32,249 bases of DNA from the NCBI RefSeq assembly GCF_016765695.1, contig NZ_JAETGO010000062.1:1-32249 (forward strand), in the 5' to 3' direction. Source of the DNA: Sporosalibacterium faouarense (GTDB taxonomy: Bacteria; Bacillota; Clostridia; Tissierellales; VENL01). Of the stretch, positions 1,624-23,954 are shown piece after piece. The notes beneath the pieces were generated by a model. The model saw only the letters and a program-made list of their open reading frames with translations, searched no databases and was not told the origin of the DNA. The stretch's first letter is position 1, and every line of letters begins with the position of its first letter. The translations under genes were made by a program, and so were the position numbers.

Positions 1624-1710
1624 ATTTTACCTCCTTCTATATTTAGCATAGTTTCAAGTTTTATATTCCTATTTAAATAAAATTCCTATATTAAAAAATA
1701 TCTTCGAAGT

Positions 1711-2589: not shown

Positions 2590-2660
2590 AAGTTACACCC
2601 CCTCCTTTCATAATTTAATTTTACATATGCAAGGTAATTAACTTATTTTATATAAAAACA

Positions 2661-2695
2661 ATAGCAAAGCCACCGAGTATAAACTCAATGGCCTT
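2661..2695 (-). terminator. Hairpin terminator after the CoA-disulfide reductase gene
   Basis: On the minus strand a 12-bp stem (several G-U pairs) with a 6-nt loop lies 62 bp after the stop codon at 2758. It is followed by GCTATTGTTTTTATA, a T-run displaced several bases from the stem, so termination is probably incomplete and may allow read-through into tauC. Confidence 0.55.
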
Positions 2696-2757
2696 ACTAA
2701 TTTAATTTTTTAGAAATTTTTTAGAGGAGTTTTAAATATAATAAATTTAAGAATTTT

Positions 2758-4455: not shown

Positions 4456-4643
4456 ATTAACCCGTCCTCCTTTTAATTGTTATAAATCCCCTTACCTTGT
4501 TGTTGTATAATAAGCACAGATATGCATGTACCTTTAAATTGCAGTTCTGATTTTAATATGTTTATCAAATATCAATCAATTTCGTAACATCTATAATTTA
4601 AGCACTAGATTTTCTGATTATTACTAATAATTATTAGCAATAT

Positions 4644-6152: not shown

Positions 6153-7109
6153 TTATTTTACTAATGAAAATCCTTTATTCGCCCATCCTAATGGTTCATT
6201 TGATGACATTCCTGTACCACCATTTAATGATACAGCATCATAACCTAATACTCTTAAAGTCGCCACAGTTTGACCTGCTGTTTGACCTGTATAACAATAT
6301 ACTATGATTTTTTTATCTTTCGGTAATGTATTGAATTCTTTATGCATTTCTTTTCCAAAAGGAATATTTTCAGCACCTTGTATATGACCTTTTGCAAAAT
6401 CGTCTGCTTTTCTTATTGATAAGAACATTATACTACTATCTTCTTGGTCTAACATATTCTTAGCATTATCTTCACTTATCTTATAGTTTGCATATGTAGT
6501 TCCATTTACTTCTGCAAGACCACTATAATATTCATCTATTGCCTCTTTAATTTCTGTGTCAATTTCAACTCCTGTTGGTTGACCAAATTCATTAGGAGTT
6601 GTTTCAGTTATCGCTTCCACTCCTTCAACCTTTGAAATACCATAATTCCAACCTAAGTTAACAGATTTAGCATCAAAACCTGCCATGTTTAATAGGGCAA
6701 CTGTTTGACCTGCTGTTTGTCCTGAATAGCAGTACACCATTATTGTTTTGCTTCTTGGTAGTTTGTCAAGACTTTCACTTATGGCTGTTCCCCAAGGAGC
6801 ATTAACAGCACCTTTTATATGTCCTTCAGCATATGCATCAGATTGTCTTATATCTAATATGAACATATCTTCTTCTGCATTAACCTTGTCTACGAATTTA
6901 TCTTGAGCAATCTTATAGATGTCACTACCCATATTAGTATAATAATCACTTACAGCTTGAGTTAAAACATCGTCACCATTTGTAGCTCCTTCTATATTCG
7001 AATTTGGCTGTGTATCTACATCTGATTCTTCAGCCTTACCACACCCCACTACACTTAATGCTAATATAAATACCAAAACTAATGATATTCCTTTAAAATT
7101 TTTAAACAT
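6153..7109 (-). CDS. Surface lipoprotein with two active-site-bearing rhodanese domains
   Basis: A 318-residue exported lipoprotein: signal peptide 1-22 and lipobox Cys23 (VVGC). Two rhodanese-like domains follow, residues about 65-160 and 205-300. Both keep the catalytic loop in almost the same form: VYCYSGQTAGQT (Cys127) and VYCYTGQTAGQT (Cys272). In ordinary two-domain thiosulfate sulfurtransferases only the C-terminal domain keeps the cysteine, so this arrangement reflects duplication of a complete single-domain unit, each copy preceded by a DYYTNMG/EYYSGLA-type segment. It should act outside the membrane, carrying sulfane sulfur as a persulfide. It is the first gene upstream of the YeeE gene (210 bp). 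The start follows AAAGGGG. The sulfur donor and acceptor are not known. Confidence 0.9.
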   Translation of the reverse strand: MFKNFKGISLVLVFILALSVVGCGKAEESDVDTQPNSNIEGATNGDDVLTQAVSDYYTNMGSDIYKIAQDKFVDKVNAEEDMFILDIRQSDAYAEGHIKGAVNAPWGTAISESLDKLPRSKTIMVYCYSGQTAGQTVALLNMAGFDAKSVNLGWNYGISKVEGVEAITETTPNEFGQPTGVEIDTEIKEAIDEYYSGLAEVNGTTYANYKISEDNAKNMLDQEDSSIMFLSIRKADDFAKGHIQGAENIPFGKEMHKEFNTLPKDKKIIVYCYTGQTAGQTVATLRVLGYDAVSLNGGTGMSSNEPLGWANKGFSLVK

Positions 7110-7344: not shown

Positions 7345-8256
7345 TCAAGAGTTATCTTGCTCGTTTATCTCTACTTTGTTATTCTCTGGCATTTGTACTG
7401 GTAAAGACGTATCTTTGGACCATTCAGACCATGCACCATCATATAATTTTAGATTTCTATATCCTGCATTATAAAGTGCAAGGTAGGTTTGAGCCCCTCT
7501 AATTGAGGTTTTACAATACATAATAGCAGTATCATCAGGGATTAGCCCAGCATCTAAATACATAACTTGAATATCTCCCACTGTTTTATAAGTCCCATCA
7601 CTCTTATTATTATCAACATAGTTCATTAATACAGAACTTGGAATAGTTCCTGCGTCATATTCTTCTTGAGAACGAGTATCTATTAAGATTACATCTTCTT
7701 TAGGATCATTGATTTGTGATTTCATATCATCAATAGTCGCTATCATATTTACATTTTTTTCTTTAGCTACATACTTTGTAGGTGAAATATCTGGTATTTC
7801 TTTTGTTAATTCAACACCAGTTGCATTTAAAGCTTTTATTCCACCACTTACTACTTTAACATTCTCGTGACCATAAACCTTTAAAGTCCACCACAATCTT
7901 GCTGAATCCATATTGTTATTATTATCGTAAATTACAACTGTAGTATCATTAGAAATTCCCTTTGTACTCACGACTTCTTCAATTTGATCTTTTGGAGCAA
8001 GCATATTGGGTACAGGTTCATTGATTACTATATCTGCCCTGCTAATGTTAACAGAGTTTTTAATATGACTATATAGATACCCTTCTGAACCTTGTGCATC
8101 AACCAATACAACATTTTCTTGATTAATTAATTTTACTGCTTCATTTGCATCAATGATTTCAGTACCTTCTTCTCCACTAAAAGAACTACATCCAATATTT
8201 GTGAACATAATTGCTATTATGAGTATAAGTAATGATGCCTTAGATAATCTTTTCAT
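7345..8256 (-). CDS. Thiosulfate sulfurtransferase-like (SseA/TST-type) lipoprotein
   Basis: A 303-residue exported protein with signal peptide and lipobox Cys23 (NIGC). Two rhodanese domains: residues about 35-155, without a catalytic cysteine (the loop reads VVIYDNNNNMDSARLWW, as in inactive N-terminal domains), and about 170-285 with the active loop MYCKTSIRG (Cys248). Other family blocks are VYGHENVKVVSGG and LYDGAWSEW. This is the classical TST/SseA architecture, placed outside the membrane, and it differs in origin from the neighbouring double-active lipoprotein. It is its own transcription unit (terminator at 7270-7313). Start is fixed by GGAGGAAAAAA before the ATG. It probably transfers sulfane sulfur from thiosulfate or an organic persulfide to a thiol acceptor on the cell surface. 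Confidence 0.92.
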   Translation of the reverse strand: MKRLSKASLLILIIAIMFTNIGCSSFSGEEGTEIIDANEAVKLINQENVVLVDAQGSEGYLYSHIKNSVNISRADIVINEPVPNMLAPKDQIEEVVSTKGISNDTTVVIYDNNNNMDSARLWWTLKVYGHENVKVVSGGIKALNATGVELTKEIPDISPTKYVAKEKNVNMIATIDDMKSQINDPKEDVILIDTRSQEEYDAGTIPSSVLMNYVDNNKSDGTYKTVGDIQVMYLDAGLIPDDTAIMYCKTSIRGAQTYLALYNAGYRNLKLYDGAWSEWSKDTSLPVQMPENNKVEINEQDNS

Positions 8257-8541: not shown

Positions 8542-10098
8542 ATGTTTAAAATTAAGTTAAATCTAAATAAAAAGATTGCTATAGGACTTCTAATAATTTA
8601 TTTTTTAATGAATTTAGCTTTTTTGACTAAATTCCCATTTGTTCATTCTGATGAACCGTGGCTAAGTGGTTTGACTAGAAATATTTTAGAGGAAAAAAAT
8701 TTTTCTGTAACAGAGACTTTTTTCGATTTATATGAAAGGCATCCCCATGCAATTAAAAGCTTATTTCATTTAATACAAATGCCCTTCTTAAAGCTATTTG
8801 GCTATAGTGTTTTTACATTTAGACTAATATCTTTAATATTTGGAACACTAACATTAATCTTTTTTTATAAACTTTGTTATCTTCTATTCAAATCAAAAAA
8901 GTTTGCTTTACTTTCAACCTTTCTGTTATCAATAGACATTCAATATATATATGCATCCCATTTTGCTAGGCAAGAAATAATTTTACTTTTCTCTTTTATA
9001 TTAGGTTTATATATTTTTAATAAAAGTACAAAGGCTGATGATTATCGTAGAGATGTGATAGTAGGTATTTTAATTGGTATGAGTATAGGTATACATCCTA
9101 ACAGCTTCATAATATCTATTCCCTTTGGATTCCTATATTTATATCATGTTTTTATTACGAAAAATCTAAAGTTTAGAAATCTTACACTATATGTTGCTAT
9201 AGTTTCTTTATTTGCCTTATTCTTTATTTTTCTTAGTTTTAAATTTGATCCAAACTTTTTAAGTCATTACACAAATTATGGAAATCAATTTGGTGTACTT
9301 AACCCAGTAATATCTAAAGTTGAGCAGATAAAATATTTTTATTTAAAACTCTATTACGGTATTAGTGGTACATACTATACTCCAAAGATTAAATTTCAAT
9401 TTTATTTATTCAGTACAGTATTGATTACAAGTTTTATCAAGCTGTTTTTAAATAAATATAGTTCAAAAAAATCACCTTTAATCTCTATACTATTATGCAT
9501 TTTAGCCATAAATATCGGAATAATTTTAATAGGTAGATTTAATGCAACCAGTGTAATATTTATATTTCCACTGCTTTATATCTTAACAACTTATACACTA
9601 ATGGACCTAAAAAAGTGGAAATCTTTATTTGCATTTTTGATATCTATTATTCTCATTGTTAATACAATTAGTAATATACTGCCATATCTAAACACTAGAT
9701 ATGATACCTATCTTAGTGAAATAGGAAAGTTTGTCCAGAAGGATGATACTGTTTTAGCTAATCTTAATAGTGAATACTATTTTGAAAATGGAAAGCTATA
9801 TGATTATAGAAATCTTTCTCTATTAAGTGAAAACAACATGAGTTTTTCAGATTATATATATAATCATGATATTGAATACATAGTGTATTCACAGGAGATG
9901 GATTTTATATATAACAATAGACCAGTATGGAATGGATTATATGGGAATCTATATTTTTATTATGAGGATATGCAAAGTTTTTTTGACTCTAAATGTACCC
10001 TTGTCCATGAATTCAAAGACAATATATATGGCATTAGAATAGCAAGGTATATTAACACCAGAGATTGGTGGATAAAAATATATAAAGTAAAAGAATAG
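8542..10098 (+). CDS. GT-C family membrane glycosyltransferase (ArnT/PMT-like)
   Basis: A 518-residue integral membrane protein with about ten hydrophobic segments in residues 10-385 and a hydrophilic C-terminal domain after that. The first outside loop has HSDEPW (residues 35-40), the acidic pair expected for the catalytic site of PMT/ArnT enzymes that use polyprenyl-phosphate sugars. A second loop motif (HFARQE) is also typical. It would transfer a sugar from undecaprenyl phosphate to an acceptor outside the cell; the acceptor (protein, teichoic acid or lipid) is not visible. It is convergent with the glycan operon that encodes a matching lipid-linked sugar supply. The ribosome binding site AGGAGG lies 7 nt upstream. 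The last codons form half of an inverted repeat with the facing gene. Confidence 0.88.
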   Translation: MFKIKLNLNKKIAIGLLIIYFLMNLAFLTKFPFVHSDEPWLSGLTRNILEEKNFSVTETFFDLYERHPHAIKSLFHLIQMPFLKLFGYSVFTFRLISLIFGTLTLIFFYKLCYLLFKSKKFALLSTFLLSIDIQYIYASHFARQEIILLFSFILGLYIFNKSTKADDYRRDVIVGILIGMSIGIHPNSFIISIPFGFLYLYHVFITKNLKFRNLTLYVAIVSLFALFFIFLSFKFDPNFLSHYTNYGNQFGVLNPVISKVEQIKYFYLKLYYGISGTYYTPKIKFQFYLFSTVLITSFIKLFLNKYSSKKSPLISILLCILAINIGIILIGRFNATSVIFIFPLLYILTTYTLMDLKKWKSLFAFLISIILIVNTISNILPYLNTRYDTYLSEIGKFVQKDDTVLANLNSEYYFENGKLYDYRNLSLLSENNMSFSDYIYNHDIEYIVYSQEMDFIYNNRPVWNGLYGNLYFYYEDMQSFFDSKCTLVHEFKDNIYGIRIARYINTRDWWIKIYKVKE

Positions 10099-10134
10099 GT
10101 CTAAGTATCACCAGAACCTATTCTTTTACTTTAT
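10082..10134. terminator. Bidirectional terminator built from the 3' coding ends of two convergent genes
   Basis: A perfect 19-bp inverted repeat (10082-10100 and 10116-10134) with a 15-nt loop. Each arm contains the last codons and TAG stop of one gene; both proteins therefore end in the same residues, KVKE. The right arm is T-rich on the plus strand, as is the left arm on the minus strand, which fits termination in both directions. Confidence 0.8.
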
Positions 10135-10873
10135 CATAAATTTCTTTCACTTTTTCAATAAACCCAGTACTTAATCTATCCCTTGGTCTATCCAAATTAT
10201 TAACTATTGTATCTCTAATGCTTGTGGGTGATTTTCCCATGACTATAATTCTATCCGATAGTACTACTGCTTCTTCTATGTCGTGGGTAACAAAAATGAT
10301 AGTAGCTTTTATCTCCTTCCACAGTTCAATTAAGATACTTTGTAACTGTGTACGAGTTTCAATATCTAGACTGCCAAAGGGCTCATCCATTAATAAAATT
10401 TCAGGTTTCATAGCCAAAGCCCTTGCAATAGCAGTTCTCTGCTTCATCCCTCCAGATAACTCATGGGGATAATAATTTTCATATCCCTCTAGTTTAACCA
10501 TTTGCAAATAATGCTTGGCTAATTCTATTCTATTATCTAATTGTATCTCTGTTTTGTTAATATTAAGTGGAAATAAAACATTCTTAAGAACAGTTTGCCA
10601 AGGAAAAAGTTGATTAAACTCTTGAAACACCATTATACGATTAGGACTTGGCCCTAGTATTTCTTCCTCTTTAAAAAAAATGTTGCCTTCATCATATTCT
10701 TCAAAACCACCAATTAATCCTAATAGGGTTGATTTCCCACAGCCTGATGGTCCAACTATAGATAAAAATTCTCCCTTTTTGACATGAAAACTAACTTTAT
10801 TAAGTACATCTACTTTTTTACTATCTTTTATAAAAGATTTAGATATGTTATTTATTTTTAATAATGATGTCAT
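10118..10873 (-). CDS. NitT/TauT-family ABC transporter ATP-binding protein
   Basis: About 251 residues, full-length ABC ATPase of the SsuB/TauB group: Walker A GPSGCGKST, Q-loop VFQEFNQLFPWQ, signature LSGGMKQR, Walker B ILLMDEP, D-loop and H-loop (VTHDIEEA). I prefer the ATG at 10873: it forms an ATGA overlap with the stop of the permease gene and has GGGGGAT 8 nt upstream. An in-frame ATG at 10888 would add five residues. It is the last gene of the glycan operon and supplies energy to the permease at 10870-11655. The substrate is not known; the family handles sulfonates, nitrate, bicarbonate, thiamine precursors and similar small molecules. Confidence 0.93.
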   Translation of the reverse strand: MTSLLKINNISKSFIKDSKKVDVLNKVSFHVKKGEFLSIVGPSGCGKSTLLGLIGGFEEYDEGNIFFKEEEILGPSPNRIMVFQEFNQLFPWQTVLKNVLFPLNINKTEIQLDNRIELAKHYLQMVKLEGYENYYPHELSGGMKQRTAIARALAMKPEILLMDEPFGSLDIETRTQLQSILIELWKEIKATIIFVTHDIEEAVVLSDRIIVMGKSPTSIRDTIVNNLDRPRDRLSTGFIEKVKEIYDKVKE

Positions 10874-11655
10874 ATTGACATCCCCCATTTTCTAATAGTA
10901 ATTTTTTCAAGTCTATCAAAAAATATATCTTCTACTAATATTCCAATAAATACGATAACTATTAATCCTCCAAATAATCCAGGGGTATCCATAAATACTC
11001 TCTTTTTAAAAATGAGCCAACCAAGTCCACCTATCCCTCCAGCTGCTCCGAAAACCATTTCAGCACTTATAACTGCTCTCCAAGCCCTTGCCCATCCAAT
11101 CTTCAAACCTGTGATAAAATAGGGTAGTGCTGCTGGAATTAATATATATCGAATAATACCTATAGTATTTAATCCATAGTTTTTTCCAATTTTTTTATAT
11201 ATTTTAGGAATTGATTTAAAACCAGTAAGCAAATTAATTATCAATGGCCATAATACAGAATGTATTATTATAAAAATAATAGCACCTTCTCCTATACCAA
11301 TCCAGAGAATTATTAAAGGAAGCAATGCAATCCCTGGCAGTGGATGGGCGATAGCTATTAATGTTTCAACAAATCCTTCAAAGGTCTGTGATATTGCTGA
11401 AAGACCAGATAATACTATAGCAATTATTAATGCAGCTGCTACTCCCCTAAAAATAAGACTTAATGAATATAACGTTTGAAGAATTATATCACCATTTGTT
11501 ACGTCATGAATTAAAGAAGATAATATTGTTTCTATCCTTGGAAATGAAGTGGGATTAAAGACTTGGCTTAGGGCAACTACTTGCCATATGATACCTAGTA
11601 TAACTATCCAAAATAATCTTAATATATATTTATTATTAATAAACTTATTTTTCAT
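10870..11655 (-). CDS. NitT/TauT-family ABC transporter permease
   Basis: About 261 residues with six hydrophobic segments and the BPD_transp_1 pattern: HPLPGIALLPLIILWIGIGE before the core, and an EAA-type loop around IGKNYGLNTIGIIRYILIP. The second half (GLKIGWARAWRAVISAEMV) is typical of SsuC-like permeases. The ATG at 11655 (GGGAAG upstream) is preferred; an ATG at 11664 is also in frame. The start overlaps the 3' end of the binding-protein gene, and the stop overlaps the ATPase start, so the three are translationally coupled. Clearly different in sequence from the tauC at 1711-2589, so it is not a recent copy. Confidence 0.92.
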   Translation of the reverse strand: MKNKFINNKYILRLFWIVILGIIWQVVALSQVFNPTSFPRIETILSSLIHDVTNGDIILQTLYSLSLIFRGVAAALIIAIVLSGLSAISQTFEGFVETLIAIAHPLPGIALLPLIILWIGIGEGAIIFIIIHSVLWPLIINLLTGFKSIPKIYKKIGKNYGLNTIGIIRYILIPAALPYFITGLKIGWARAWRAVISAEMVFGAAGGIGGLGWLIFKKRVFMDTPGLFGGLIVIVFIGILVEDIFFDRLEKITIRKWGMSI

Positions 11656-12643
11656 AATTAACATCTTCCCATAATACCTCTTCTAAATTTTGAAATGAAT
11701 TTGATATATAATTATTTCTCTTCATAAAATCAGTGAAATCCTCTAATCCCTTTACTTTTGATGTATATTTTGTTCCATCTGCAGTTATATACCTTAATAC
11801 TTCTTCCTTAGGTAAATCATATTCTTTAGCTAAAATACTTGCTGCTTCCTGTGGATGATCGTTTATAAAATCAATTGCCTCGTGTAATGAATCTAAAAAT
11901 GCTTCATATGTCTCAGAGCTCATATCATGAAACTCCTTTGTTGCTACCCCAATAATGAAAGTAAAATCTTTACCCATAGCCTCTTCTCCAGTTAAAACCT
12001 GGTGAAACCCTTCATTATCTAACTCTTTAAAAATATAAGGAGGTGAAGTAAAGTGAGCACTTATATCCTTTTTAGCTAGTAGAGCATTCATACCATCAGG
12101 GTGTGCCATAGTTACCAGTTGGTTATCAAGTTTATGAGAATCACTAAAAGCTTTTTCACTAGCCATTGATAACAATATGTGTTGAATACTACCTGGTTGT
12201 GGCAAAGCAATTCTATCATTAGTAGTCAAATCTTTTATTGAATTTATACCATCTTTGTAGGTTATCAAACCAATAGGCATAGAAGATAATCCACTGGCTA
12301 TTTTCCAGTCCATCCCTTTATCCCACCCAATTAAAAATGGAGGAATAGCCATAAACCCAATGTCTACTTCATTTGATATCATTCCTTCTCTTATTGCTGC
12401 AGTATTTCCCATTTGCTTCCATATTATTTGCGTTTGTGGTAACCTCTTTTTCAAAATTTCTTTATTTTTCATTATTTGAAGTGGAGCGTAAGCTAGACCA
12501 TATTGTTCTGCTATTCTTATCTCATTGTTTTGGGATGTGTCATTGTTGAGAGTACATCCATTCAATGAAAGTACTATTACAAATATTATTAATACTATAC
12601 AAATTCTATGGATTTTCGTTAATTTTTCCACAAGTCTTCTCAT
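11645..12643 (-). CDS. NitT/TauT-family ABC substrate-binding lipoprotein
   Basis: A 332-residue exported lipoprotein: hydrophobic signal segment, then lipobox LNGC near residue 30. The remainder is a SsuA/NMT1-like binding protein (IRIAEQYGLAYAPLQIMK, GNTAAIREGMISNEVDIGFMAIPPFLIGW, IALPQPGSIQHILLSMA, DDHPQEAAS-like segment FINDHPQEAASILAKEYDLP). It lacks the TauA-specific blocks seen at 556-1623, so I do not call it taurine-specific. The start is uncertain: AGGAG directly abuts the ATG at 12643, while a GTG at 12631 has it 12 nt upstream. It follows the ATP-grasp gene by 7 bp, inside the same operon as nucleotide-sugar genes. The ligand may be unrelated to the glycan or may be a precursor for it. 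Confidence 0.88.
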   Translation of the reverse strand: MRRLVEKLTKIHRICIVLIIFVIVLSLNGCTLNNDTSQNNEIRIAEQYGLAYAPLQIMKNKEILKKRLPQTQIIWKQMGNTAAIREGMISNEVDIGFMAIPPFLIGWDKGMDWKIASGLSSMPIGLITYKDGINSIKDLTTNDRIALPQPGSIQHILLSMASEKAFSDSHKLDNQLVTMAHPDGMNALLAKKDISAHFTSPPYIFKELDNEGFHQVLTGEEAMGKDFTFIIGVATKEFHDMSSETYEAFLDSLHEAIDFINDHPQEAASILAKEYDLPKEEVLRYITADGTKYTSKVKGLEDFTDFMKRNNYISNSFQNLEEVLWEDVNYEK

Positions 12644-12650
12644 CTCCTAT

Positions 12651-13889
12651 TTAGTACATTTTATACTGGATAACAAGATTATTATCATCGTTATCATATA
12701 TTTTTAAATTTATAAAAGCCTTATTTATATTCCTTGCAAGAGATTCATTATCTTCTCCAACTATAATCATGTATCCTGCCCTTGCAGTGGCATTTATTAT
12801 TTCTTTTAGTTCATCTCCAACTTTAAAGTTAAACTTGGCATCTATTACGCCCTGTAATCTTTTTATTTCTTCTAGATGACTTAAATATTTGATTTTACCA
12901 GGTCTAGCAAAAAACAACTGAACTGATGCCTTTTTATGGTTTTTTAATAAATCATACTCCTTTAATTTCGTATAATCTATCTCTTTTCCCAGGGAATAAT
13001 CTATAACCATATCTAATATATCTATCTCAGTCAATAATGGTATCAATTTATCCTCATAGGCTCCTCCAATTCTACAAGCTACTTCATTAACCTTAACACC
13101 CTCATCCCCTATTAGCATTTGAAAATAGATAGGTCCCTCTTGTATTTCAAAAGCATCAACTATTTTTCTTGTGATATTATCAATATCTTCATAATAATCA
13201 TATAAATGCTTAGAAGGAAAATCATGGGCTAAACATATTCCAATATGCTGATTCCTGCTAAATGTAACTCTATCGGTAACTAAAATTATATGAGTATTTC
13301 CCCCTTGAACCCAACCGCTTACTGTAATCTCTTCACTTTCATAATATTCCTCAACTAATACTACTTCTTCTCTTGAATAGCTTAATGTGTCTTTAATCTT
13401 TTCTCTTATTTCATCTATAGAATTCAACTTATAAATGCCTCTTTGTCCTTGACTATCAACAGGCTTTATAACAATAGGAAATTTCAAATCATCTAATTCA
13501 TTATCCATAAAGCTTTCATCTATAAAAGCATAGTTGACTGTTGGAATTCTATTTTCTTGGAAGATTTCCTTCATTATTCTTTTATTTGTGACAGCTTGTG
13601 CAGTTGAAACATTCAAAAATGAAGGGAGTTTTAATTCATTTGCTACATTTGCTACTGTATAAATTGGTTGATCAGTCCCTATAGTCATAATTCCATCAAT
13701 ATTATATTTCTTTGCTACATCTATATTTCCTTCAACATCAAATGTACTAACTAACTCACCGAAGTCACTAATTTCCTTACCAGGTGCATCTTCATAGTAA
13801 TCTGAAACGACGGTGGTAATCCCTTTTTCATTTCCTCGTTTTATGGCATTAATTTGACTATTTCCGCCGCCTAATATTAAAAGTTTCAT
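12651..13889 (-). CDS. ATP-grasp ligase of unknown specificity
   Basis: A 412-residue protein of the carbamoyl-phosphate-synthase/PurK-like ATP-grasp fold. Residues 1-105 are a Rossmann-like N-terminal domain (ILGGGNSQINAIKRG, IDGIMTIGTDQP). The ATP-grasp core follows: FPIVIKPVDSQGQRGIYK (Lys for ATP binding), VLVEEYYESEEITVSGWV, and the metal-binding end VNEVACRIGGAYED. The C-terminal region (about 310-412) holds a PurK-like cap. Such enzymes join a carboxylate to an amine or thiol through an acyl phosphate. Placed between a 4-aminosugar pathway and a transporter, it may add an acid or amino acid to the sugar amine; this is inference. Ribosome binding site AGGAGG, 8 nt before the ATG. Confidence 0.85.
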   Translation of the reverse strand: MKLLILGGGNSQINAIKRGNEKGITTVVSDYYEDAPGKEISDFGELVSTFDVEGNIDVAKKYNIDGIMTIGTDQPIYTVANVANELKLPSFLNVSTAQAVTNKRIMKEIFQENRIPTVNYAFIDESFMDNELDDLKFPIVIKPVDSQGQRGIYKLNSIDEIREKIKDTLSYSREEVVLVEEYYESEEITVSGWVQGGNTHIILVTDRVTFSRNQHIGICLAHDFPSKHLYDYYEDIDNITRKIVDAFEIQEGPIYFQMLIGDEGVKVNEVACRIGGAYEDKLIPLLTEIDILDMVIDYSLGKEIDYTKLKEYDLLKNHKKASVQLFFARPGKIKYLSHLEEIKRLQGVIDAKFNFKVGDELKEIINATARAGYMIIVGEDNESLARNINKAFINLKIYDNDDNNLVIQYKMY

Positions 13890-13901
13890 TTAATAGCCTC
13901 C

Positions 13902-14639
13902 TTAAAGATAACTTTCACTTATTTCAAATTGAGACTGTTTTTTTAAAAACCTATTAAAAAGTTTATAGTCTGAATAGTAAATATATAGCTTTAAAAACAA
14001 GCTAATAAGCTTTGAAAAATTATAATTAGACTTACCGTATTTCCTAGGTCTATGCTCAACATAGATATTTCCAATATTTCTAGTTATTTTAAATATTATA
14101 GCGCTTATATAAACAAAGCTTGTCCTATCCTTTTTAATTACTTCAAGGGTATTTTTCTTAATACAACGAAAACTACTGACCCTTATATCCTTTGGCTTAT
14201 GACAAATAGTATTGAAGAGAAAATTAGTCATCTTTGACCCAACATTCCTTAAAAAATTATGTTCTTTTTTTTGTGCTATTCCATAAACTACGTCGTATCC
14301 TTCATCCATTTTTTCCATGATTTTTATTATTTCTTTTGGTTGATGTTGTAAGTCATCGTCCATAGTAATTATAAATTCCTTAGTTGCAAATTCAAATCCA
14401 CACTTAATTGCATTCTGCTGACCAAAGTTTTTCTCAAGTCTTATAATCTTAAGATTCTTATTCCTTTTATACATATCTTTCATCTTTAAAAAACTATTAT
14501 CTGTACTATAATCATCTACTAAAATAATTTCATATTCAATAAATATTTCCTTTAATACTTTAGATAATCTATCAAGTAATTCATCTAAAGAATCTATACT
14601 ATTGTAAACTGGAATTACTATTGACCCACTACTCCACAT
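13902..14639 (-). CDS. Family 2 glycosyltransferase, ArnC/GtrB/DPM1-like
   Basis: A 245-residue GT-A fold enzyme: IVIPVYNSIDSLDELL at the start, VDDYSTDNS (residues 41-49), DXD-type motif MDDDLQHQP (93-101) and the C-terminal block RKYGKSNYNFSKLISL that marks polyprenyl-phosphate sugar transferases. It should move an activated sugar onto undecaprenyl phosphate on the inner membrane face. Unlike ArnC or GtrB (over 300 residues) it ends soon after the SNY block and has at most one short hydrophobic segment in place of the usual two C-terminal membrane helices, so membrane attachment may be peripheral. It starts 2 bp after the end of wecE (ribosome binding site AAAGGAG inside wecE's end). The likely donor is the dTDP-sugar made by the three genes upstream. 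Confidence 0.9.
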   Translation of the reverse strand: MWSSGSIVIPVYNSIDSLDELLDRLSKVLKEIFIEYEIILVDDYSTDNSFLKMKDMYKRNKNLKIIRLEKNFGQQNAIKCGFEFATKEFIITMDDDLQHQPKEIIKIMEKMDEGYDVVYGIAQKKEHNFLRNVGSKMTNFLFNTICHKPKDIRVSSFRCIKKNTLEVIKKDRTSFVYISAIIFKITRNIGNIYVEHRPRKYGKSNYNFSKLISLFLKLYIYYSDYKLFNRFLKKQSQFEISESYL

Positions 14640-14641
14640 AT

Positions 14642-15787
14642 CTAAATCTCCTTTAATATTTTGTCTAATTTATGTATAACATAATCTGCTTCTTTAATAG
14701 TCATATCTGTATATAACGGGAGTCTTATAAGGGTTTCCCCCACTCTTTCTGTTATTGGTAAGTCTCCTAGATTATATCCTAAAGATTGACCCATGGATGA
14801 ACTATGTAGTGGTTCAAAGTGGGTGGTAGCATTGATACCAAAATCTCTTAACTTACTAATCACCTTGTTTCTTGAAGCTTCTTTATTTATTAAAATATAG
14901 AAAATATGATGGTTTGAATCCTGATAATCTTCTACACTCGTCATACCTTTTAATAAACCAGACTCTAAATATCCACGCAAATTATCTATATAATGACAAA
15001 CAATCTTCCTTCTCTTTTCTTTTATAATATCTAAATGCTGTAATTGAGCATATAATACTGCCATTAAAATATCTGAAGGTGTATAACTAGAACCTTTATC
15101 TACCCAAGTATATTTATCAACTTCACCTTTTAAAAACTTATTTCTATTAGTTCCTTTTTGTCTTATAATATCAGCTCTTTCAATAAGTTCTTCATCTTCT
15201 GAATTAATTAAAAGAGCTCCACCTTCACCACTAATGTAATTTTTTGTTCCATGAAAACTATAGCAAGCTAAATGTCCCCAAGCACCTAAGAATTTATCTT
15301 TATATTTAGAATTAACTCCTTGAGCTGCATCCTCAATTATATAAAGATTATATTCTTGAGCAATTCTTATAATCCTATCCATCTCACATCCAACCCCACC
15401 ATAATGAACTGGTACTATAGCTTTGGTTTTTTTAGTAATCTTCCTTTCTATATCATCGGGGTCAATGTTTAACGTGTTCTGAGATATTTCAGCAAATACT
15501 GGAGTTGCACCTTGAAGTATTGATGCGTTTGCTGTAGATGGAAAAGTAAAAGAAGGCATTATTACTTCATCATTAGTCTCTAAGCCAATAAGTTGCATGG
15601 ACATATCTAATGCATGGGTTGCTGAAGTTGTCATAAGTACCTTGGGAATGTGAAATTTCTCCTCAAGTAAAGAAGATACTCGAGATGTAAAATAACCATC
15701 TCCACTAACACTTGCCATATTAAAAGCTTCTTCTATTAATTTTATTTCATTTCCAGTTAAATAGATTTTATTAAATGGAATATTCAT
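14642..15787 (-). CDS. wecE: dTDP-4-dehydro-6-deoxyglucose transaminase (dTDP-4-amino-4,6-dideoxygalactose-forming, WecE/RffA-like)
   Basis: About 381 residues, DegT/DnrJ/EryC1 PLP aminotransferase. The similarity to E. coli WecE extends over the whole length: IPFNKIYLTGNE, VSGDGYFTSR, VIMPSFTFPSTANA, IVPVHYGGVGCEMD, IIEDAAQGV, SFHGTKNYISGEGGALL, IIRQKGTNRNKF, YTWVDKGSSY. The PLP lysine is Lys182 in HGTKNY. It converts the RfbB product to a 4-amino sugar with glutamate as amino donor; the WecE likeness favours the galacto form (Fuc4N). The longest frame opens with a TTG at 15802, but MNIPFNK at 15787 matches the family's N-terminus; ATGs at 15790 and 15799 are alternatives. All overlap the 3' end of the nucleotidyltransferase gene. 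Confidence 0.92.
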   Translation of the reverse strand: MNIPFNKIYLTGNEIKLIEEAFNMASVSGDGYFTSRVSSLLEEKFHIPKVLMTTSATHALDMSMQLIGLETNDEVIMPSFTFPSTANASILQGATPVFAEISQNTLNIDPDDIERKITKKTKAIVPVHYGGVGCEMDRIIRIAQEYNLYIIEDAAQGVNSKYKDKFLGAWGHLACYSFHGTKNYISGEGGALLINSEDEELIERADIIRQKGTNRNKFLKGEVDKYTWVDKGSSYTPSDILMAVLYAQLQHLDIIKEKRRKIVCHYIDNLRGYLESGLLKGMTSVEDYQDSNHHIFYILINKEASRNKVISKLRDFGINATTHFEPLHSSSMGQSLGYNLGDLPITERVGETLIRLPLYTDMTIKEADYVIHKLDKILKEI

Positions 15788-16523
15788 CATAATCACCATC
15801 AATAATTTGATTATTTATTTTATAAAGCATATCATTTGCTATTCTATAGGATTCTATTGTACCTGCATCCGTCCATTCTCCATCCAAAATATCATAAGTC
15901 AACTTTCCCTTATCAATATACACATTATTAGCACTAGTTATTTCGTATTCACCTTTAGGAGAAGTAGGAATACTCCTTATAATATCAAAAACGTTGTTAT
16001 CATACATATATATACCAGTTACTGCATAGTTACTTCTAGGTAGTGTAGGTTTTTCTTCTATACTTATTAGTTTTTTCTCATCTAAAATTGCTATTCCAAA
16101 GTGGTGAGGGTTCAAAACTTCTTTTAGTAATACTTTAGCACCTATTTTTTGCTTTTTAAATTTATCTATATATGGTCTGATACTTCTAGTTACAATATTA
16201 TCTCCTAATATTACAGTTATCAAATGACCTGCTGCAAAATTTTCTGCTAATGAAAGAGCATTAGCTATACCTCTTGGTTTTTCTTGCACTTTAAAGGTAA
16301 AATCACATCCAAATTCTTCTCCACTTCCAAGTACATTAACTACATCTCCCATATTTTCTCTGCTTGTTATTATCATAATATCTCTAATATCTGATGCTAT
16401 TAGCTGCTTTATTGGATTATATATCATTGGCTCTTTTCCTACAGGTAATAGATGTTTATTTGTATTTTTAGTTAAAGGAAACAATCTTGTACCTTTACCC
16501 CCTGCTAAAATAATCCCTTTCAT
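15771..16523 (-). CDS. Glucose-1-phosphate thymidylyltransferase-like nucleotidyltransferase (RfbA/SpsI type)
   Basis: A 250-residue sugar-phosphate nucleotidyltransferase: N-terminal GGKGTRLFPLT (residues 8-18) and KHLLPVGKEPMIYNPI, then GDN metal/nucleotide motif (ILGDNIV) and EKP (ISIEEKP). It would activate glucose-1-phosphate with dTTP for the RfbB step. It is shorter than typical RfbA (about 290 residues) and lacks the C-terminal helical part used for allosteric tetramer contacts, as in the spore-coat SpsI type. The gene starts 23 bp after rfbB with AGGAGGAAGAGG upstream, and its end overlaps wecE. The nucleotide could in principle be UTP or CTP, but the rfbB-wecE context supports dTTP. 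Confidence 0.88.
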   Translation of the reverse strand: MKGIILAGGKGTRLFPLTKNTNKHLLPVGKEPMIYNPIKQLIASDIRDIMIITSRENMGDVVNVLGSGEEFGCDFTFKVQEKPRGIANALSLAENFAAGHLITVILGDNIVTRSIRPYIDKFKKQKIGAKVLLKEVLNPHHFGIAILDEKKLISIEEKPTLPRSNYAVTGIYMYDNNVFDIIRSIPTSPKGEYEITSANNVYIDKGKLTYDILDGEWTDAGTIESYRIANDMLYKINNQIIDGDYDEYSI

Positions 16524-16546
16524 AACCTCTTCCTCCTAAATGTCTT

Positions 16547-17554
16547 CTACTCCACTACTAATCCTTCATCAATATACCAATTAATTGTTTTTTCTAAGCC
16601 CCATTCTAATCCAATTGAATTATTCCATCCTAGTGTTTCAATTAACTTAGTTGCCTTTATACCATATCTTTTATCATGTCCTTTTCTATCCTCAACAAAT
16701 TCAATTAATTCTTCACTAATACCATTTGAATCTAAACCTTTATTTTGTAATATTTCTTTTGTTTTATTAATAATTATCCTAACTATATCAATATTTCTCT
16801 TTTCATCATTGCTGCTTATATTATAAACTTCACCGATAGCTCCTTTATTCAATATTTTATTTATACCATAACAATGATCTGTAACATAAATCCAATCTCT
16901 AACATTGATTCCATTACCGTAAACAGGTATTTTTCTTCTTTCTAGACAATTAGTAATAACCTTCGGTATAAGCTTTTCTTTGTGCTGACATGGGCCATAG
17001 TTATTACTAGAACGAGTTATTATAGAAGGTAACCCGTAGGTATTATAGAAGGATTGCACTAATAGGTCTCCTGAAGCTTTGCTAGCAGCATATGGATTAT
17101 TAGGCTTCAAAGGTGATTCTTCACTAAAAAAGCCATTCTCAATGGACCCATATACCTCATCAGTTGAAATCTGTATAAACTTTTCTATTTCACTATTCAA
17201 AGAACATTCTAATAATACTTGTGTACCTAATACATTTGTTTTTATAAACTCTGTACTGCTTTCAATACTTCTATCCACATGGGATTCTGCCGCAAAGTTA
17301 ATAACATAGTCTGGCTTATAAAAGTTAAAAATATCCCTTATGCTATTTCTATTACATATATCTTCTTGAATAAAAGTATAGTTATACTTTTTCTCTAATT
17401 TCTTAACATTTTCTAAATTACCAGCGTATGTCAATTTATCTATATTTACAATGTTTATATTTTCATTTCCCGTAAGTTTATTATTTCCAAATATATACCT
17501 TATAAAATTTGAACCTATAAACCCTGCACCACCAGTAACCAAATATCTTTTCAT
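16547..17554 (-). CDS. rfbB: dTDP-glucose 4,6-dehydratase
   Basis: A 335-residue extended short-chain dehydrogenase. NAD-binding motif TGGAGFIGSN (residues 7-16), IDKLTYAGNLENV, the AAESHVDRSI block, catalytic TDE (131-133) and YAASK (Tyr155, Lys159) are all intact, as is NNYGPCQHKEKLIP. It turns dTDP-glucose into dTDP-4-dehydro-6-deoxyglucose, the substrate for the WecE-like transaminase two genes on. It is the first gene of the eight-gene minus-strand operon, with GGAG 9 nt before the ATG. The family is often annotated as rfbB or rmlB. No rfbC or rfbD is present, so the pathway here is aimed at an amino sugar, not rhamnose. Confidence 0.95.
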   Translation of the reverse strand: MKRYLVTGGAGFIGSNFIRYIFGNNKLTGNENINIVNIDKLTYAGNLENVKKLEKKYNYTFIQEDICNRNSIRDIFNFYKPDYVINFAAESHVDRSIESSTEFIKTNVLGTQVLLECSLNSEIEKFIQISTDEVYGSIENGFFSEESPLKPNNPYAASKASGDLLVQSFYNTYGLPSIITRSSNNYGPCQHKEKLIPKVITNCLERRKIPVYGNGINVRDWIYVTDHCYGINKILNKGAIGEVYNISSNDEKRNIDIVRIIINKTKEILQNKGLDSNGISEELIEFVEDRKGHDKRYGIKATKLIETLGWNNSIGLEWGLEKTINWYIDEGLVVE

Positions 17555-17655: not shown

Positions 17656-17874
17656 ATGAAGAAAGTTAATTGTTTAGGTGATTTATGCCCTATTCCTGTT
17701 ATTAAAACGAAAAAAGAACTTCAAAAAATGAAGTCTGGAGAATCCGTTATGGTAGTAACAGACCACAGCTGCACACTTGAAGCTCTTGTTGATTTATTCA
17801 AAAATTACGATGTTAAATTTGACTATGATGAAGTAATCAATGGTGTTTGGGAAATAACAATTACCAGACTCTAA
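17656..17874 (+). CDS. tusA: TusA-family sulfur carrier protein
   Basis: A 72-residue cytoplasmic protein with the defining CPxP motif (Cys11 in LCPIPVIKTKKEL), normal for the family length. TusA proteins carry sulfur as a persulfide on that cysteine, passing it between rhodaneses or desulfurases and acceptors; many are encoded beside YeeE transporters, as here (TsuB-like role). Start set by AAGGAG 7 nt upstream. Its stop overlaps by 4 bp the 3' end of the convergent LysR gene. Sulfur could come from the split YeeE importer at 18983-20293 or from CoADR-Rhd. Confidence 0.93.
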   Translation: MKKVNCLGDLCPIPVIKTKKELQKMKSGESVMVVTDHSCTLEALVDLFKNYDVKFDYDEVINGVWEITITRL

Positions 17875-18767
17875 CACAAACTATCTTTTCCTATCTTTTT
17901 ACAATACTCTATAAATTCACTAACAGATTTACTTAATCGTGTATTTTTTTCATTTATTAAATACATCTGATATTCCATGGAAAAATCTGATATTTTTATC
18001 AGTTTTAACCTCTCCTCATATAATTCTTTCTTAATAGAAATATAAGGAAGAAATGCAATGCCATACCCTCTAAATATAGAAGATTTAACTGACTCCGTTG
18101 AATCACTTTTGTACAGAACATTTAATTCATTAGACTCATACCCTAGCTTTTTCATTCTATCCTTTAAAGATTTTTCAACATTAAGCTTATCATTCAACAA
18201 AACAAATGGATGTCTTAACAAATCTTCAAAATTAACTTCATTCTCTATTTCATAATCAGATGATGCAACCAAAACAAGGTTGTCAGTTCCTATTTCATAA
18301 TAAGCCAAAGAGCTATCATGTGGCTTTCCATAAATAACACCTATGTCAGCAATATTATTCCTAATATTCTCTTCTATGGCTTCAAATGAATTAGATATCA
18401 ATTCATAATTATGATAAGGAAATTTTTTCTTTATTTTACATAATACACATGGCAAGGCATAAGTGGCTATTGGCCAACATGCTTCAATTTTAATAATTTC
18501 ACCATTTTTTGAATCTTCATTTAAGTTTTCCATCATAGCTTCATAAGTTCTTATAAGATTATCAGCATATTTTAAAACTATTGACCCTTTTTCTGTCAAT
18601 TCTACCCCTTTATTACTTCTTATTAATAGGTCATATCCTAAGCTTTCTTCAAGCTTTTGAATCTGTTGACTGAGAGCTGGCTGAGAAATATGAGCATCAT
18701 TTGCGACCCTTGAAATACTCTTAGCTATGGCCACTTTATAAAAATATTCAAAGCATTCTATATGCAA
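17871..18767 (-). CDS. LysR-family transcriptional regulator
   Basis: About 298 residues. Residues 1-60 are the LysR helix-turn-helix (FEYFYKVAIAKSISRVANDAHISQPALSQQIQKLEESLG), then a linker and an effector-binding domain from about residue 90 (IKIEACWPIATYALPCVL onward). The start I chose is TTG at 18767: the string AGGGGTGA, which matches the ribosomal anti-Shine-Dalgarno, lies about 5 to 8 nt upstream, and MHIECFEYF is a normal LysR opening. The longer GTG at 18776 lies within that ribosome binding site. It is divergent from the yeeE pair and convergent with tusA, so both are candidate targets. A sulfur metabolite effector, as in CysB or CysL, is plausible but not shown. Confidence 0.93.
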   Translation of the reverse strand: MHIECFEYFYKVAIAKSISRVANDAHISQPALSQQIQKLEESLGYDLLIRSNKGVELTEKGSIVLKYADNLIRTYEAMMENLNEDSKNGEIIKIEACWPIATYALPCVLCKIKKKFPYHNYELISNSFEAIEENIRNNIADIGVIYGKPHDSSLAYYEIGTDNLVLVASSDYEIENEVNFEDLLRHPFVLLNDKLNVEKSLKDRMKKLGYESNELNVLYKSDSTESVKSSIFRGYGIAFLPYISIKKELYEERLKLIKISDFSMEYQMYLINEKNTRLSKSVSEFIEYCKKIGKDSLC

Positions 18768-18903
18768 AACAGTCACCCCTTTATTATCTTACTTAATTAC
18801 CTTATAGTTTGTCTATCAAAAATATTATAACATATAATCTTTCTAAACTACTAAAATCATATTTTTACATATAAATATTGACATATAGTTAGTACATGTT
18901 CAA

Positions 18904-18933: not shown

Positions 18934-18982
18934 TTTGTTAGTAATATATCTTGATGCCTAAGAGAAGGAGTTGTGTGGTCTA

Positions 18983-19681
18983 ATGGCCGAAATAAGTAAT
19001 ACAAATCAAACTATAAAAGAAACCTATTCTTCTAAAAAGTCAAAATATAGGAAACATAAAAAAAGTCAAATTCCTTTAGGATTTGTAATTTTAGTAGCTA
19101 TTGTAATAATTGGAATCTTACTATCCAAAGTTTCTACTAATTTAGGATTATTTTGGATGATTGGTATTTGCTTCGGAGTCATACTACAAAAATCAAGATT
19201 TTGCTTCACTGCATCTATGAGAGATCCATCATTAACAGGTAGTACATCGTTAACTAAAGCAGTTCTTGTAGCTCTTGCAATCACAACTATTGGTTTCACA
19301 GCAATAAGATTCGGTTTATTTTCTAATGGATTACTTAATTCACAACAGATTTCTGTTCCTCCTATTAGCATTACAACAGTTATTGGTGCTTTTATGTTTG
19401 GTATAGGAATGGTTATTTCAGGTGGATGTGCATCAGGTACTCTTATGAGAGTCGGTGAAGGGTTCTTAATGCAAATATTAACTTTAGTATTCTTCATCAC
19501 TGGTTCTCTTTGGGGAGCCCACAATTTTGGATGGTGGAATACTAATTTTATTACAAAAGGAAAACCCGTATTCTTACCTAACATATTTGGTTGGTTTGGG
19601 TCAGTTGTTCTTCAGCTATTACTAATAGCAGCCTTATATATTTTAGCTGATAAATGGGGAAGTAAAAAACAAAATTTTTAA
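18983..19681 (+). CDS. YeeE/YedE-family transporter, N-terminal half
   Basis: About 232 residues. A hydrophilic, lysine-rich stretch (1-30) leads into five or so membrane segments. Two of the family's cysteine motifs are here: LQKSRFCFTAS (Cys74) and ISGGCASGTL (Cys149). The third is in the next gene. Known thiosulfate importers of this family (TsuA) use three cysteines in the pore. The longest frame begins with TTG at 18971, which abuts the ribosome binding site AGGAG; the ATG at 18983, 12 nt after it, is more likely. It pairs with 19763-20293 (81-bp gap) to make a two-repeat transporter equal to the fused protein at 4644-5942. Confidence 0.9.
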   Translation: MAEISNTNQTIKETYSSKKSKYRKHKKSQIPLGFVILVAIVIIGILLSKVSTNLGLFWMIGICFGVILQKSRFCFTASMRDPSLTGSTSLTKAVLVALAITTIGFTAIRFGLFSNGLLNSQQISVPPISITTVIGAFMFGIGMVISGGCASGTLMRVGEGFLMQILTLVFFITGSLWGAHNFGWWNTNFITKGKPVFLPNIFGWFGSVVLQLLLIAALYILADKWGSKKQNF

Positions 19682-19762: not shown

Positions 19763-20293
19763 ATGAAATTAGAAAACAATAAATTTTATAAATTATGGTT
19801 TAAAAACTCATGGTCATACATAGTTGGTGCAGTGCTTTTATCAGTATTCCAGATAGTAACATTAGCTACCACCGGAAGTCCTTGGCGGATATCAGGAACC
19901 TTTGCTTATTGGGGAGCGTGGTTATATAAAGCATTAGGTGGTAGTGTAGATAACTGGGCCTATTTCAGTAGTGAAAGTGCTCAATCTACTTTAAATCTTG
20001 GCTTTTTCAAGGATCCTAGTTCTATGAGAAACATTGGAATAATCTTTGGTGCTCTTTTAGCTTCTCTCCTAGCTTCTCAATTTAGATTCAAAAAAATTAA
20101 AATGAAGCAAGTTATAGGTGCTATTTTAGGTGGTTTATTAATGGGCTATGGAGCGGTAATAGGATTTGGTTGCAATATTGGAGCAATGTATAGTGGCATC
20201 GCTTCATTAGCCCTTTCCGGTTGGGTATATGCTCTATTTCTTTTTCTTGGTGCTATAGTTGGTAGTAAACTATTAGTAAAGTTCTTTATGTGA
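19763..20293 (+). CDS. YeeE/YedE-family transporter, C-terminal half
   Basis: A 176-residue membrane protein with the C-terminal YeeE repeat: LGGLLMGYGAVIGFGCNIGAMYSGIASLALSGW, with Cys137 in GFGCNIGAM as the third conserved cysteine of the family (given here as the single block around residues 122-154). The N-terminal part has two membrane segments and a loop with SPWRISGTFAYWGAW. It is preceded by TAGGAGGAAAAT and follows its partner by 81 bp, so the two should be made together and assemble in the membrane. Substrate likely thiosulfate or a related sulfane-sulfur anion, in line with the nearby tusA. Confidence 0.9.
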   Translation: MKLENNKFYKLWFKNSWSYIVGAVLLSVFQIVTLATTGSPWRISGTFAYWGAWLYKALGGSVDNWAYFSSESAQSTLNLGFFKDPSSMRNIGIIFGALLASLLASQFRFKKIKMKQVIGAILGGLLMGYGAVIGFGCNIGAMYSGIASLALSGWVYALFLFLGAIVGSKLLVKFFM

Positions 20294-21355: not shown

Positions 21356-21400
21356 TTTCTCTCTCTCCTTTATGTTCATAATTATTGATATACTAATTGA

Positions 21401-23102: not shown

Positions 23103-23103
23103 A

Positions 23104-23472: not shown

Positions 23473-23551
23473 AATAACCCTCCATTCTATTTTTTATAAT
23501 AATCATTAATCACTTTAAATGAGCATATAATCTTAGATTTAGACAATATTA

Positions 23552-23929: not shown

Positions 23930-23954
23930 ATTCATTCACCTCACTTATAGAAAA

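Follow-up and report, generated by a model that had tools for sequence, protein, structure and literature searches.

Why should an operon for a lipid-linked aminosugar contain an ATP-grasp ligase and an importer, and why should it stand among genes for sulfur chemistry? The question is raised by a stretch of 32,249 nucleotides from Sporosalibacterium faouarense (contig NZ_JAETGO010000062.1), here called the window. It contains an operon in the order rmlB-rmlA-wecE-GT2-ATP-grasp-SBP-permease-ATPase, with intergenic gaps of -32 to 23 bp, faced by a gene for a GT-C glycosyltransferase of the PMT type (GT2, family 2 glycosyltransferase; SBP, substrate-binding protein; coordinates in Table 1). Operon and facing gene are referred to as the cassette. 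The original prediction, made from the letters of this DNA, had described a lipid-linked aminosugar pathway in which the ligase acylates the sugar, perhaps with a compound brought in by the importer. All the genes it named are present at the positions it gave, but its limits were drawn too narrowly, since conserved sulfur genes lie on both sides of the operon and the gene for TusA had been missed.

We put at roughly 60% the probability that the cassette encodes an Arn-like glycosylation pathway on a lipid carrier, devoted to an extracellular sulfane-sulfur system. Because it travels with extracellular sulfur genes in many families of Clostridia-like bacteria, the aminosugar is probably one functional component of an undescribed route by which sulfur compounds are used at the cell surface; thiosulfate, polysulfide or another form of sulfane sulfur is likely to be what is handled there. 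The tie to extracellular rhodaneses and to YeeE/TusA changes what the cassette is for. The strongest support comes from the conserved neighbourhood and from the joint distribution with the rhodanese Rhod1.

Conservation of the neighbourhood

Orthologues of the ATP-grasp ligase were found at 41-81% identity when 60 relatives were searched, and that of Maledivibacter halophilus (L040) is 83% identical; sulfur genes were already present in the first neighbourhoods inspected. Orthologues and paralogues are sharply split: with a profile of 14 orthologues, 16 of 249 genomes of the order scored at least 613 bits and the next no more than 243. Matches at E 1e-85 or better occurred in 19 of 391 genomes of a class sample and 20 of 398 of a phylum sample, the window's own genome being included in each. 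Neighbourhoods were taken for all ATP-grasp matches save the window's own and annotated with hidden Markov models (HMMs) built from the first loci, the scores of which are relative. Core loci are those scoring at least 430 bits with the HMM from the first loci; L041-L043 were dropped as duplicates of L024, L026 and L122 (the prefixes L, G and f denote loci, genomes and families).

In a tree with paralogues (FastTree, LG only, L116 left out) the core ATP-grasps form one clade of 48 sequences, 47 loci and the window, with a support of 0.998; the core together with six deeper sequences has a support of 0.739. L116 is a core-type locus of family f39 with a split ATP-grasp open reading frame (ORF) and a lower score. 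The core loci span 21 numbered families; Maledivibacter and Acetoanaerobium come in addition, although these two may belong to families already numbered. The original prediction had proposed a neighbourhood search; ATP-grasp and ABC (ATP-binding cassette) transporter genes recur beside wecE in many families, so the objection that the set is peculiar to this genome fails.

A gene for TusA, YeeE, a rhodanese or a reductase lies within 9.5 kb in 42 of the 47 distinct core loci, and the five lacking one (L028, L102, L111, L118 and L119) sit on contigs of 4-8 kb. Every one of the 29 core loci flanked by 7 kb or more to the left and to the right has sulfur genes. Over these well-flanked loci the counts were LysR 28, GT2 28, PMT 26, Rhod1 26, WecE 25, YeeE2a 24, YeeE2b 24, TusA 22, Rhod2 17 and TrxR, a thioredoxin-reductase fusion, 14. 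Rhod1 was out of range in L031, L109 and L122, and lies just beyond the range in the genomes of L031 and L122. The order of the blocks is rearranged between families, as in L109, L122, L126 and L128 compared with the window. Between LysR and rmlB of L024 (genome G010) there are two ORFs at 3083-4953, which read like an IS200/IS605-type TnpA/TnpB pair.

None of 13 control loci, with paralogous ATP-grasps of the same order, has a match to YeeE, TusA or rhodanese, and re-screening with broader HMMs, unfiltered and at E 1e-3, again gave none. The seeds of the broader HMMs exclude L136-L139, and these HMMs do recover the sulfur genes of L135 and L139; in two of the controls, L038 and L142, one flank is short. 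A DegT/WecE-family gene of at least 170 bits is present in 10 of the 13 controls, so that an ATP-grasp accompanied by an aminotransferase is a common feature of glycan loci in general, and what sets this clade apart is the sulfur link. The same count lends indirect support to the earlier proposal that the ATP-grasp acts on an aminosugar.

Within the deep clade, YeeE and TusA occur together in two of three well-flanked loci (L135 and L139). A YeeE pair in L139 (3838-5716; PF04143, 64 and 55 bits) lies directly behind the importer, with a gene for a TusA-DsrE (YedF-like) protein; the pair is under the detection threshold of the first-locus HMMs and was found by a Pfam scan. The deep-clade cassette of L136 (scanned) and L139 (by reading) adjoins genes for a split-Soret cytochrome c and a NapC/NirT-type cytochrome, which suggests a tie to membrane electron transfer.

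Sulfur proteins and the distribution of Rhod1

Rhod1 consists of tandem rhodanese domains behind a signal peptide, in most cases with a lipobox, and has two conserved cysteines of the catalytic type. In Rhod2 the lipobox cysteine and C248 are invariant in 24 aligned sequences. TusA has the CPxP motif, its C11, P12 and P14 being invariant in 29 aligned sequences. The fused transporter YeeE1 comes after Rhod1 in L024, L026, L040, L104, L106-L108 and L124, and relatives of the disulfide-reductase-type protein, presumably a CoA-disulfide or persulfide reductase-like enzyme, hold the same place in L024, L026, L040 and L124.

Strong Rhod1 matches (best match at least 373 bits) were found in 14 of 249 genomes of the order, all of them among its 16 cassette genomes; the two cassette genomes without one are the metagenome-assembled genomes (MAGs) G059 and G061, which are 71 and 68% complete. 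The next five genomes of the order, all of family f5 (214-243 bits), are not cassette genomes. In the phylum, strong Rhod1 (at least 392 bits) was found in 12 of 329 genomes including the window's, and all 12 carry the cassette. Weaker homologues (up to 264 bits) occur in ten further phylum genomes, five of them deep-clade cassette genomes and five outside the ATP-grasp matches. The phylum samples differ, 398 genomes having been searched for ATP-grasp and 329 for Rhod1; with both samples joined, the cassette is present in 25 of 25 distinct genomes with strong Rhod1.

A tie mainly to the YeeE2 importer was considered and rejected, YeeE2a being common without the cassette: strong YeeE2a (at least 298 bits) occurs in 24 of 249 genomes of the order, 11 of which have no cassette.

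Rhod1 appears to grow by domain duplication. It has about 300 amino acids (aa) in most loci and 529-610, 740 (L135) or 862 aa (L034 and L035) in the enlarged forms, which were seen in L030, L034, L035, L103, L105, L110, L114, L130, L134 and L135. The L034 protein (1615-4203) has six rhodanese stretches and passes the NCBIfam model NF045521, with the short name rhoda_near_glyco, at 151.7 bits against 145.

The ATP-grasp ligase

The ligase has both domains of the L-amino acid ligases, ATP-grasp_4 and LAL_C2. Its predicted structure (pLDDT, the per-residue confidence score, 94.9) is nearest to the L-amino acid ligase BL00235 (3vot; Z 38.3, root-mean-square deviation 2.8 A over 378 residues), followed by an Anaerococcus ATP-grasp protein (4dim; Z 37.0, 4.5 A over 386). 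Fold and LAL_C2 domain are thus like those of BL00235, RizA, BacD and 4dim, whereas identity in the structural alignments is only 13-20% and the clade has conserved motifs of its own, TDQP, DSQGQRG and GIC.AH.FPS. In place of the nucleophile of the L-amino acid ligases, the enzyme would presumably use a sugar amine.

An ordinary capsule-locus enzyme was set aside, since the only close match in a plasmid collection was from Acetoanaerobium (49%), the next being at 30%; two of the records at about 30% identity were inspected and are capsule or glycan loci. The Acetoanaerobium noterae record (L021) is classed as a plasmid, but its size of 2.63 Mb suggests a chromosome.

Aminosugar genes, transferases and flippase

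WecE scores above its cutoffs, also for TIGR02379 (440.5 against 434.85 bits), and its K187, presumably the pyridoxal phosphate lysine, is invariant in 45 aligned sequences, the window's included. For eight of eight relatives' WecE proteins scanned, NF008687 was the best or second-best model, and six of them exceed its cutoff. Among 20 cassette genomes tested, relatives of WecE were found in 19 and of RmlB in 19, and each in 17 of the 17 good genomes. The RmlA-like protein falls below the RmlA cutoff (TIGR01207, 227.6 against 360.65) and is not assigned to that family. The top NCBIfam match of GT2 is ArnC (NF007986), at 139.1 bits far under the 529 needed for membership; D94-D96 are invariant among aligned relatives, and GT2 lies immediately upstream of the ATP-grasp in 46 of 47 core loci. 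D37 and E38 of the PMT-type protein, which we take to be the acidic dyad of the first loop, are conserved in at least 92% of aligned relatives. Where PMT would stand, the deep-clade loci have a different large protein, which in L135 shows weak similarity to PMT_2.

In deep-clade loci a candidate flippase is present as an EamA-type pair. Small membrane proteins of this type lie between ATP-grasp and SBP in L135 (two), L136 (two) and L139 (one called); those of L135, the locus scanned with NCBIfam, are distantly ArnE/ArnF-like and under the ArnE/F cutoffs. This pair, the WecE calls in relatives, the constant place of GT2 and the frequency of PMT all support the lipid-linked aminosugar glycosylation that had been predicted.

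The importer

The NitT/TauT-type importer of the window is complete, with SBP, permease and ATPase. What stands directly behind the ATP-grasp was counted by a stricter rule in core loci with 1.5 kb of room, because some low-scoring SBP and permease matches belonged to a second ABC system. An SBP gene follows directly in 32 of 44 such loci (gaps of -38 to 207 bp); one also follows in L116 and, with the EamA-type genes in between, in L135, L136 and L139 of the deep clade. The same slot is filled by a DASS-type anion symporter in three f57 loci (L109, L110 and L113; Pfam above cutoffs in all three, TIGR00785 in L109 at 135.4 bits and under the cutoff of 198.6) and by a TAXI-TRAP transporter in L117 (232.1 against 84.35 and 641.8 against 320.65 bits). 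Nine of the control loci were scanned with Pfam, and in none of them did an importer gene come first behind the paralogous ATP-grasp. The slot pattern favours a small imported anion as the substrate of the ATP-grasp; it is also compatible with uptake of sulfur anions for the neighbouring pathway, the YeeE pair of L139 being directly behind the importer.

The SBP is below the cutoff for SsuA/TauA membership by TIGR01728. Its predicted structure (pLDDT 92.5) is closest to SsuA (2x26; Z 29.1, 2.9 A over 277 residues), with TauA (27.8) and CmpA (27.7) near. SsuA is reported to hold the sulfonate by the side chains of Gln36 and Ser141, and a similar dipole occurs in binders of nitrate and other anions (PMC3839906). 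These residues align with Q47 and S152 of the SBP, invariant in 34 of 34 sequences, so that the SBP has the expected Gln and Ser/Thr contacts. The amine of taurine is reported to be held by Glu106 and Asp205 of TauA (PMC6906117); in our reading of the HMMER alignment both fall on non-acidic positions of the SBP, and taurine uptake was set aside for that reason. The Sao ABC system was rejected as well, SaoA, SaoP and SaoX models giving 270.8 against 360 (NF040729), 118.1 against 295 (NF040733) and 35.7 against 300 (NF040735).

Proposed pathway

The analysis shows the gene content, the family assignments, the catalytic residues, how far the neighbourhood is conserved and how it is distributed together with Rhod1; the reaction steps and their order, the identity of acyl group and acceptor, the control of the genes and their role in the cell are inferred as follows. 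RmlA and RmlB would make dTDP-4-keto-6-deoxyglucose, which WecE would aminate to dTDP-4-amino-4,6-dideoxygalactose (dTDP-Fuc4N). The ATP-grasp ligase may cap the 4-amino group of Fuc4N with a carboxylate, an amino acid or other organic anion that is probably imported by the transporter encoded behind it, to give N-acylated Fuc4N. GT2 would load the sugar onto polyprenyl phosphate; the lipid-linked sugar would be flipped, by the ArnE/F-like pair in deep relatives and by some other flippase in the host of the window, and the PMT-type GT-C would transfer it to an outer-face acceptor. At that site the sugar may act with or on the tandem rhodanese lipoproteins, from which sulfane sulfur would pass to YeeE, TusA and thiol reductases. 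The whole set is probably under the adjacent LysR regulator. Riboswitch control was set aside, since the window has no Rfam match at gathering thresholds; there is no tRNA in the window either.

A number of observations weigh against this pathway or against parts of it. No YeeE, TusA or rhodanese gene was found nearby in L136 (well flanked) or in L137, L138 and L117 (short flank on one side), so the glycan part may exist without sulfur genes beside it. Strong YeeE2a is missing from 3 of the 16 cassette genomes of the order, and f114 genomes have only weaker rhodanese homologues, elsewhere in the genome. Rhod1 and the cassette are neighbours and would be inherited together anyway, so part of their joint distribution reflects linkage. 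Neither a WecE nor an RmlB relative was found in the MAG G045 (82% complete), and in G054 (77% complete) the WecE match is only a fragment. In L106-L108 wecE is not beside the ATP-grasp; a variant free of WecE was nevertheless rejected, since these three good genomes carry wecE about 11-12 kb downstream on the same strand. A simple hydropathy scan of GT2 (245 aa) showed no transmembrane segment, and so none of the C-terminal transmembrane helices of ArnC. No flippase was noticed on reading the listed ORFs of the window (80-90 aa or more), in agreement with what had been said of it earlier; nor was a GtrA flippase noticed among the window ORFs, no genome-wide search having been made. The slot behind the ATP-grasp is free of an importer in nine core loci with room (six of f3, L114, L123 and L124). 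The earlier suggestion that the importer supplies the ATP-grasp has indirect support from the loci with an SBP, DASS or TAXI-TRAP gene in that place and is opposed by these nine. Families f3 and f57 are sister clades in the tree, which makes a single loss of the ABC system in them possible.

Alternative explanations

The nature of the acyl group and the purpose of the importer allow several readings. It is possible, if doubtful, that the ligase attaches an organic anion from outside the cell, sulfonated (sulfoacetate or cysteate, for example) or of another kind. The surface sugar would then be acidic, and SsuA-like ABC, DASS and TAXI-TRAP transporters would be interchangeable sources of the anion. 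The importer slot, its different occupants, the absence of an importer from that place in the controls and the Gln and Ser contacts of the SBP agree with this, but the taurine-binding acids are not kept, a similar dipole serves nitrate and other anions, CmpA is nearly as close in fold, and nine slots are importer-free. We regard as unlikely the proposal that the importer takes up thiosulfate- or sulfite-like anions unrelated to the ATP-grasp, the glycan being an ordinary surface decoration co-regulated by sulfur supply. The sulfur genes flanking the operon, the oxyanion contacts in the SBP pocket and the YeeE pair of L139 fit it; however, L136 too has the importer behind the ATP-grasp but showed no sulfur gene, and a decoration would not be expected to co-occur so strictly with Rhod1. 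Less probable still, the ATP-grasp might attach cysteine or another thiol amino acid to Fuc4N. The product would be a thiol tethered to membrane or wall that takes sulfane sulfur from the extracellular rhodaneses, acting as glutathione or bacillithiol do inside other cells. Strict co-occurrence is with the extracellular rhodanese rather than with YeeE2a, the closest structural neighbours whose activity is known are L-amino acid ligases, and rhodaneses require an acceptor nucleophile; yet no determinant of cysteine specificity was identified, the SBP resembles sulfonate and taurine binders and not cysteine binders, and TusA, protein thiols or sulfite could serve as acceptors instead.

The acceptor of the sugar is a separate matter. 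PMT-dependent glycosylation of lipoproteins in actinobacteria offers a parallel, and the rhodanese lipoproteins, perhaps the SBP too, might be the targets here, which we consider somewhat unlikely. The GT-C belongs to the PMT family, its gene adjoins Rhod2 or Rhod1 in many loci, and many Rhod1 proteins have linkers rich in S, T, P and E. Against this, Rhod1 of L121, L123-L125 and L127-L129 has a signal-like N-terminus with no lipobox cysteine and no linker of this kind, and the cassette is kept there. A chance neighbourhood of glycan operon and sulfur genes has in its favour solely that the gene names suggest no textbook link; with sulfur genes in every well-flanked core locus, across many families and in rearranged order, and in no control, it is very improbable. 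The boldest form of the sulfane-sulfur pathway would be a surface-tethered glycoconjugate, Fuc4N with a thiol (cysteinyl-type) or sulfonate acyl group anchored on the outer face, that accepts sulfane sulfur from the extracellular tandem rhodaneses and carries it to the YeeE/TusA import route. We hold this to be distinctly unlikely; if true, it would be an extracytoplasmic counterpart of glutathione and bacillithiol in cells unable to keep a free thiol outside.

Comparison with known systems

Each enzyme of the preferred Arn-like pathway is from a known family; what is unusual is its physiological link to sulfur. The Arn pathway makes undecaprenyl-phosphate 4-amino-4-deoxy-L-arabinose (Ara4N) with ArnB, ArnA, ArnC, ArnD, ArnE/F and ArnT. 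The logic proposed for the cassette shares with it a nucleotide-linked 4-aminosugar, capping of the 4-amino group, an ArnC-like GT2, ArnE/F-like proteins (in deep relatives) and a terminal GT-C. The differences are dTDP-Fuc4N for UDP-Ara4N and an ATP-grasp for the formyltransferase; a deformylase was not noticed, most of the hosts are not expected to have lipid A, and an importer and extracellular rhodaneses are attached. The Fuc4NAc branch of enterobacterial common antigen (RmlA, RmlB, WecE, WecD and WecF) has the same route to dTDP-Fuc4N, and the WecE of the window exceeds the NF008687 cutoff. Here, however, an ATP-grasp is found, no acetyltransferase was noticed among the window ORFs, and the GT2 is ArnC-like.

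TauABC and SsuABC have the binding proteins nearest to the SBP in fold and sequence, with the sulfonate Gln/Ser contacts in common, but the SBP is under the SsuA cutoff and without the taurine-specific residues, and no desulfonation genes were noticed. As in YeeE/TusA thiosulfate import and SoxT-type import, split and fused YeeE, TusA and reductases are found near the cassette. In this locus, by contrast, the YeeE proteins are under the cutoffs of the TsuA, TsuB and YedE models, and extracellular tandem rhodaneses and a glycan cassette are attached.

A study of thiosulfate-reducing fermentative Clostridia such as Fusibacter reports that phsA/psrA, glpE and tsdA were not detected and names sudhAB as a possible route (PMC10386464), so that candidate thiosulfate genes are wanted. 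The present type of locus is a candidate for thiosulfate or polysulfide handling in fermentative Clostridia without Phs/Psr. It is a conserved, widely distributed multi-gene system for which no assigned function was found, and titles and opening parts of abstracts in the openly licensed (CC) PMC literature gave no description of such a locus or of a link between lipid-carrier glycosylation and extracellular sulfur chemistry. The pathway gives an ATP-grasp family a candidate sugar-amine substrate, and the ligand of the SBP could reveal the acyl group.

Genes in the window

Table 1. Position and family assignment of the cassette and the flanking sulfur genes in the window. Scores are in bits, with the model cutoff where one was given.
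Feature	Coordinates	Strand	Assignment
FAD/NAD disulfide-reductase-type protein, C-terminal rhodanese domain	2758..4455	-	PF07992 207.9, PF02852 48.6, PF00581 71.4
YeeE1, fused YeeE/YedE transporter	4644..5942	-	NF033796 83.6, under cutoff 350
Rhod1, extracellular tandem rhodanese lipoprotein	6153..7109	-	co-inherited with cassette
Rhod2, extracellular rhodanese lipoprotein	7345..8256	-	3-mercaptopyruvate-sulfurtransferase model 90.3, cutoff 250
PMT-type GT-C glycosyltransferase (PMT/PMT_2)	8542..10098	+ (opposite operon)	PF02366 36.5, cutoff 22.7
Importer ATPase	10118..10888	-	PF00005 109.8
Importer permease	10870..11664	-	PF00528 60.5
Importer SBP, lipoprotein, SsuA/TauA-like	11645..12643	-	TIGR01728 94.3, under cutoff 163.5
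ATP-grasp ligase, L-amino-acid-ligase fold	12651..13889	-	ATP-grasp_4 PF13535 45.8, cutoff 27; LAL_C2 PF18603 53.9, cutoff 29.4
GT2, ArnC/GtrB-like polyprenyl-phosphate sugar transferase	13902..14639	-	PF00535 107.4
WecE, dTDP-4-amino-4,6-dideoxygalactose transaminase	14642..15802	-	NF008687 496.5, above cutoff 375
RmlA-like nucleotidyltransferase, 250 aa	15771..16523	-	NTP_transferase PF00483 188.9
RmlB/RfbB, dTDP-glucose 4,6-dehydratase, first gene of operon	16547..17554	-	TIGR01181 424.1, above cutoff 365.1
TusA-like sulfur carrier, 72 aa, overlaps end of LysR by 4 bp	17656..17874	+	PF01206 61.4, cutoff 28.6
LysR regulator, upstream of operon, divergent from YeeE2a	17871..18776	-	NF040786 (selenium-associated LysR) 200.3, under cutoff 250, not a member
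YeeE2a, first half of split YeeE/YedE-type sulfur-compound transporter	18971..19681	+	NF033796 102.2, under cutoff 350
YeeE2b, second half of split YeeE/YedE-type transporter	19763..20293	+	NF033796 82.4, under cutoff 350

Behind the disulfide-reductase gene, at 556-2589, there is a second importer with an NMT1/OpuAC-like SBP and a permease named by reading; from there to the end of the window the listed ORFs include no ATPase gene. A weakly scoring permease lies beside the same reductase in L104, L106-L108, L115, L123 and L124. On the other side of the operon, 20522-23935 contains several Mrp/MinD-type ATPases in a row, with ferredoxin-like cysteines, together with small proteins; the names are given by reading. 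An ORF at 26935-28254 reads like an alpha-L-fucosidase and adjoins CutC-like and other ORFs, likewise named by reading.

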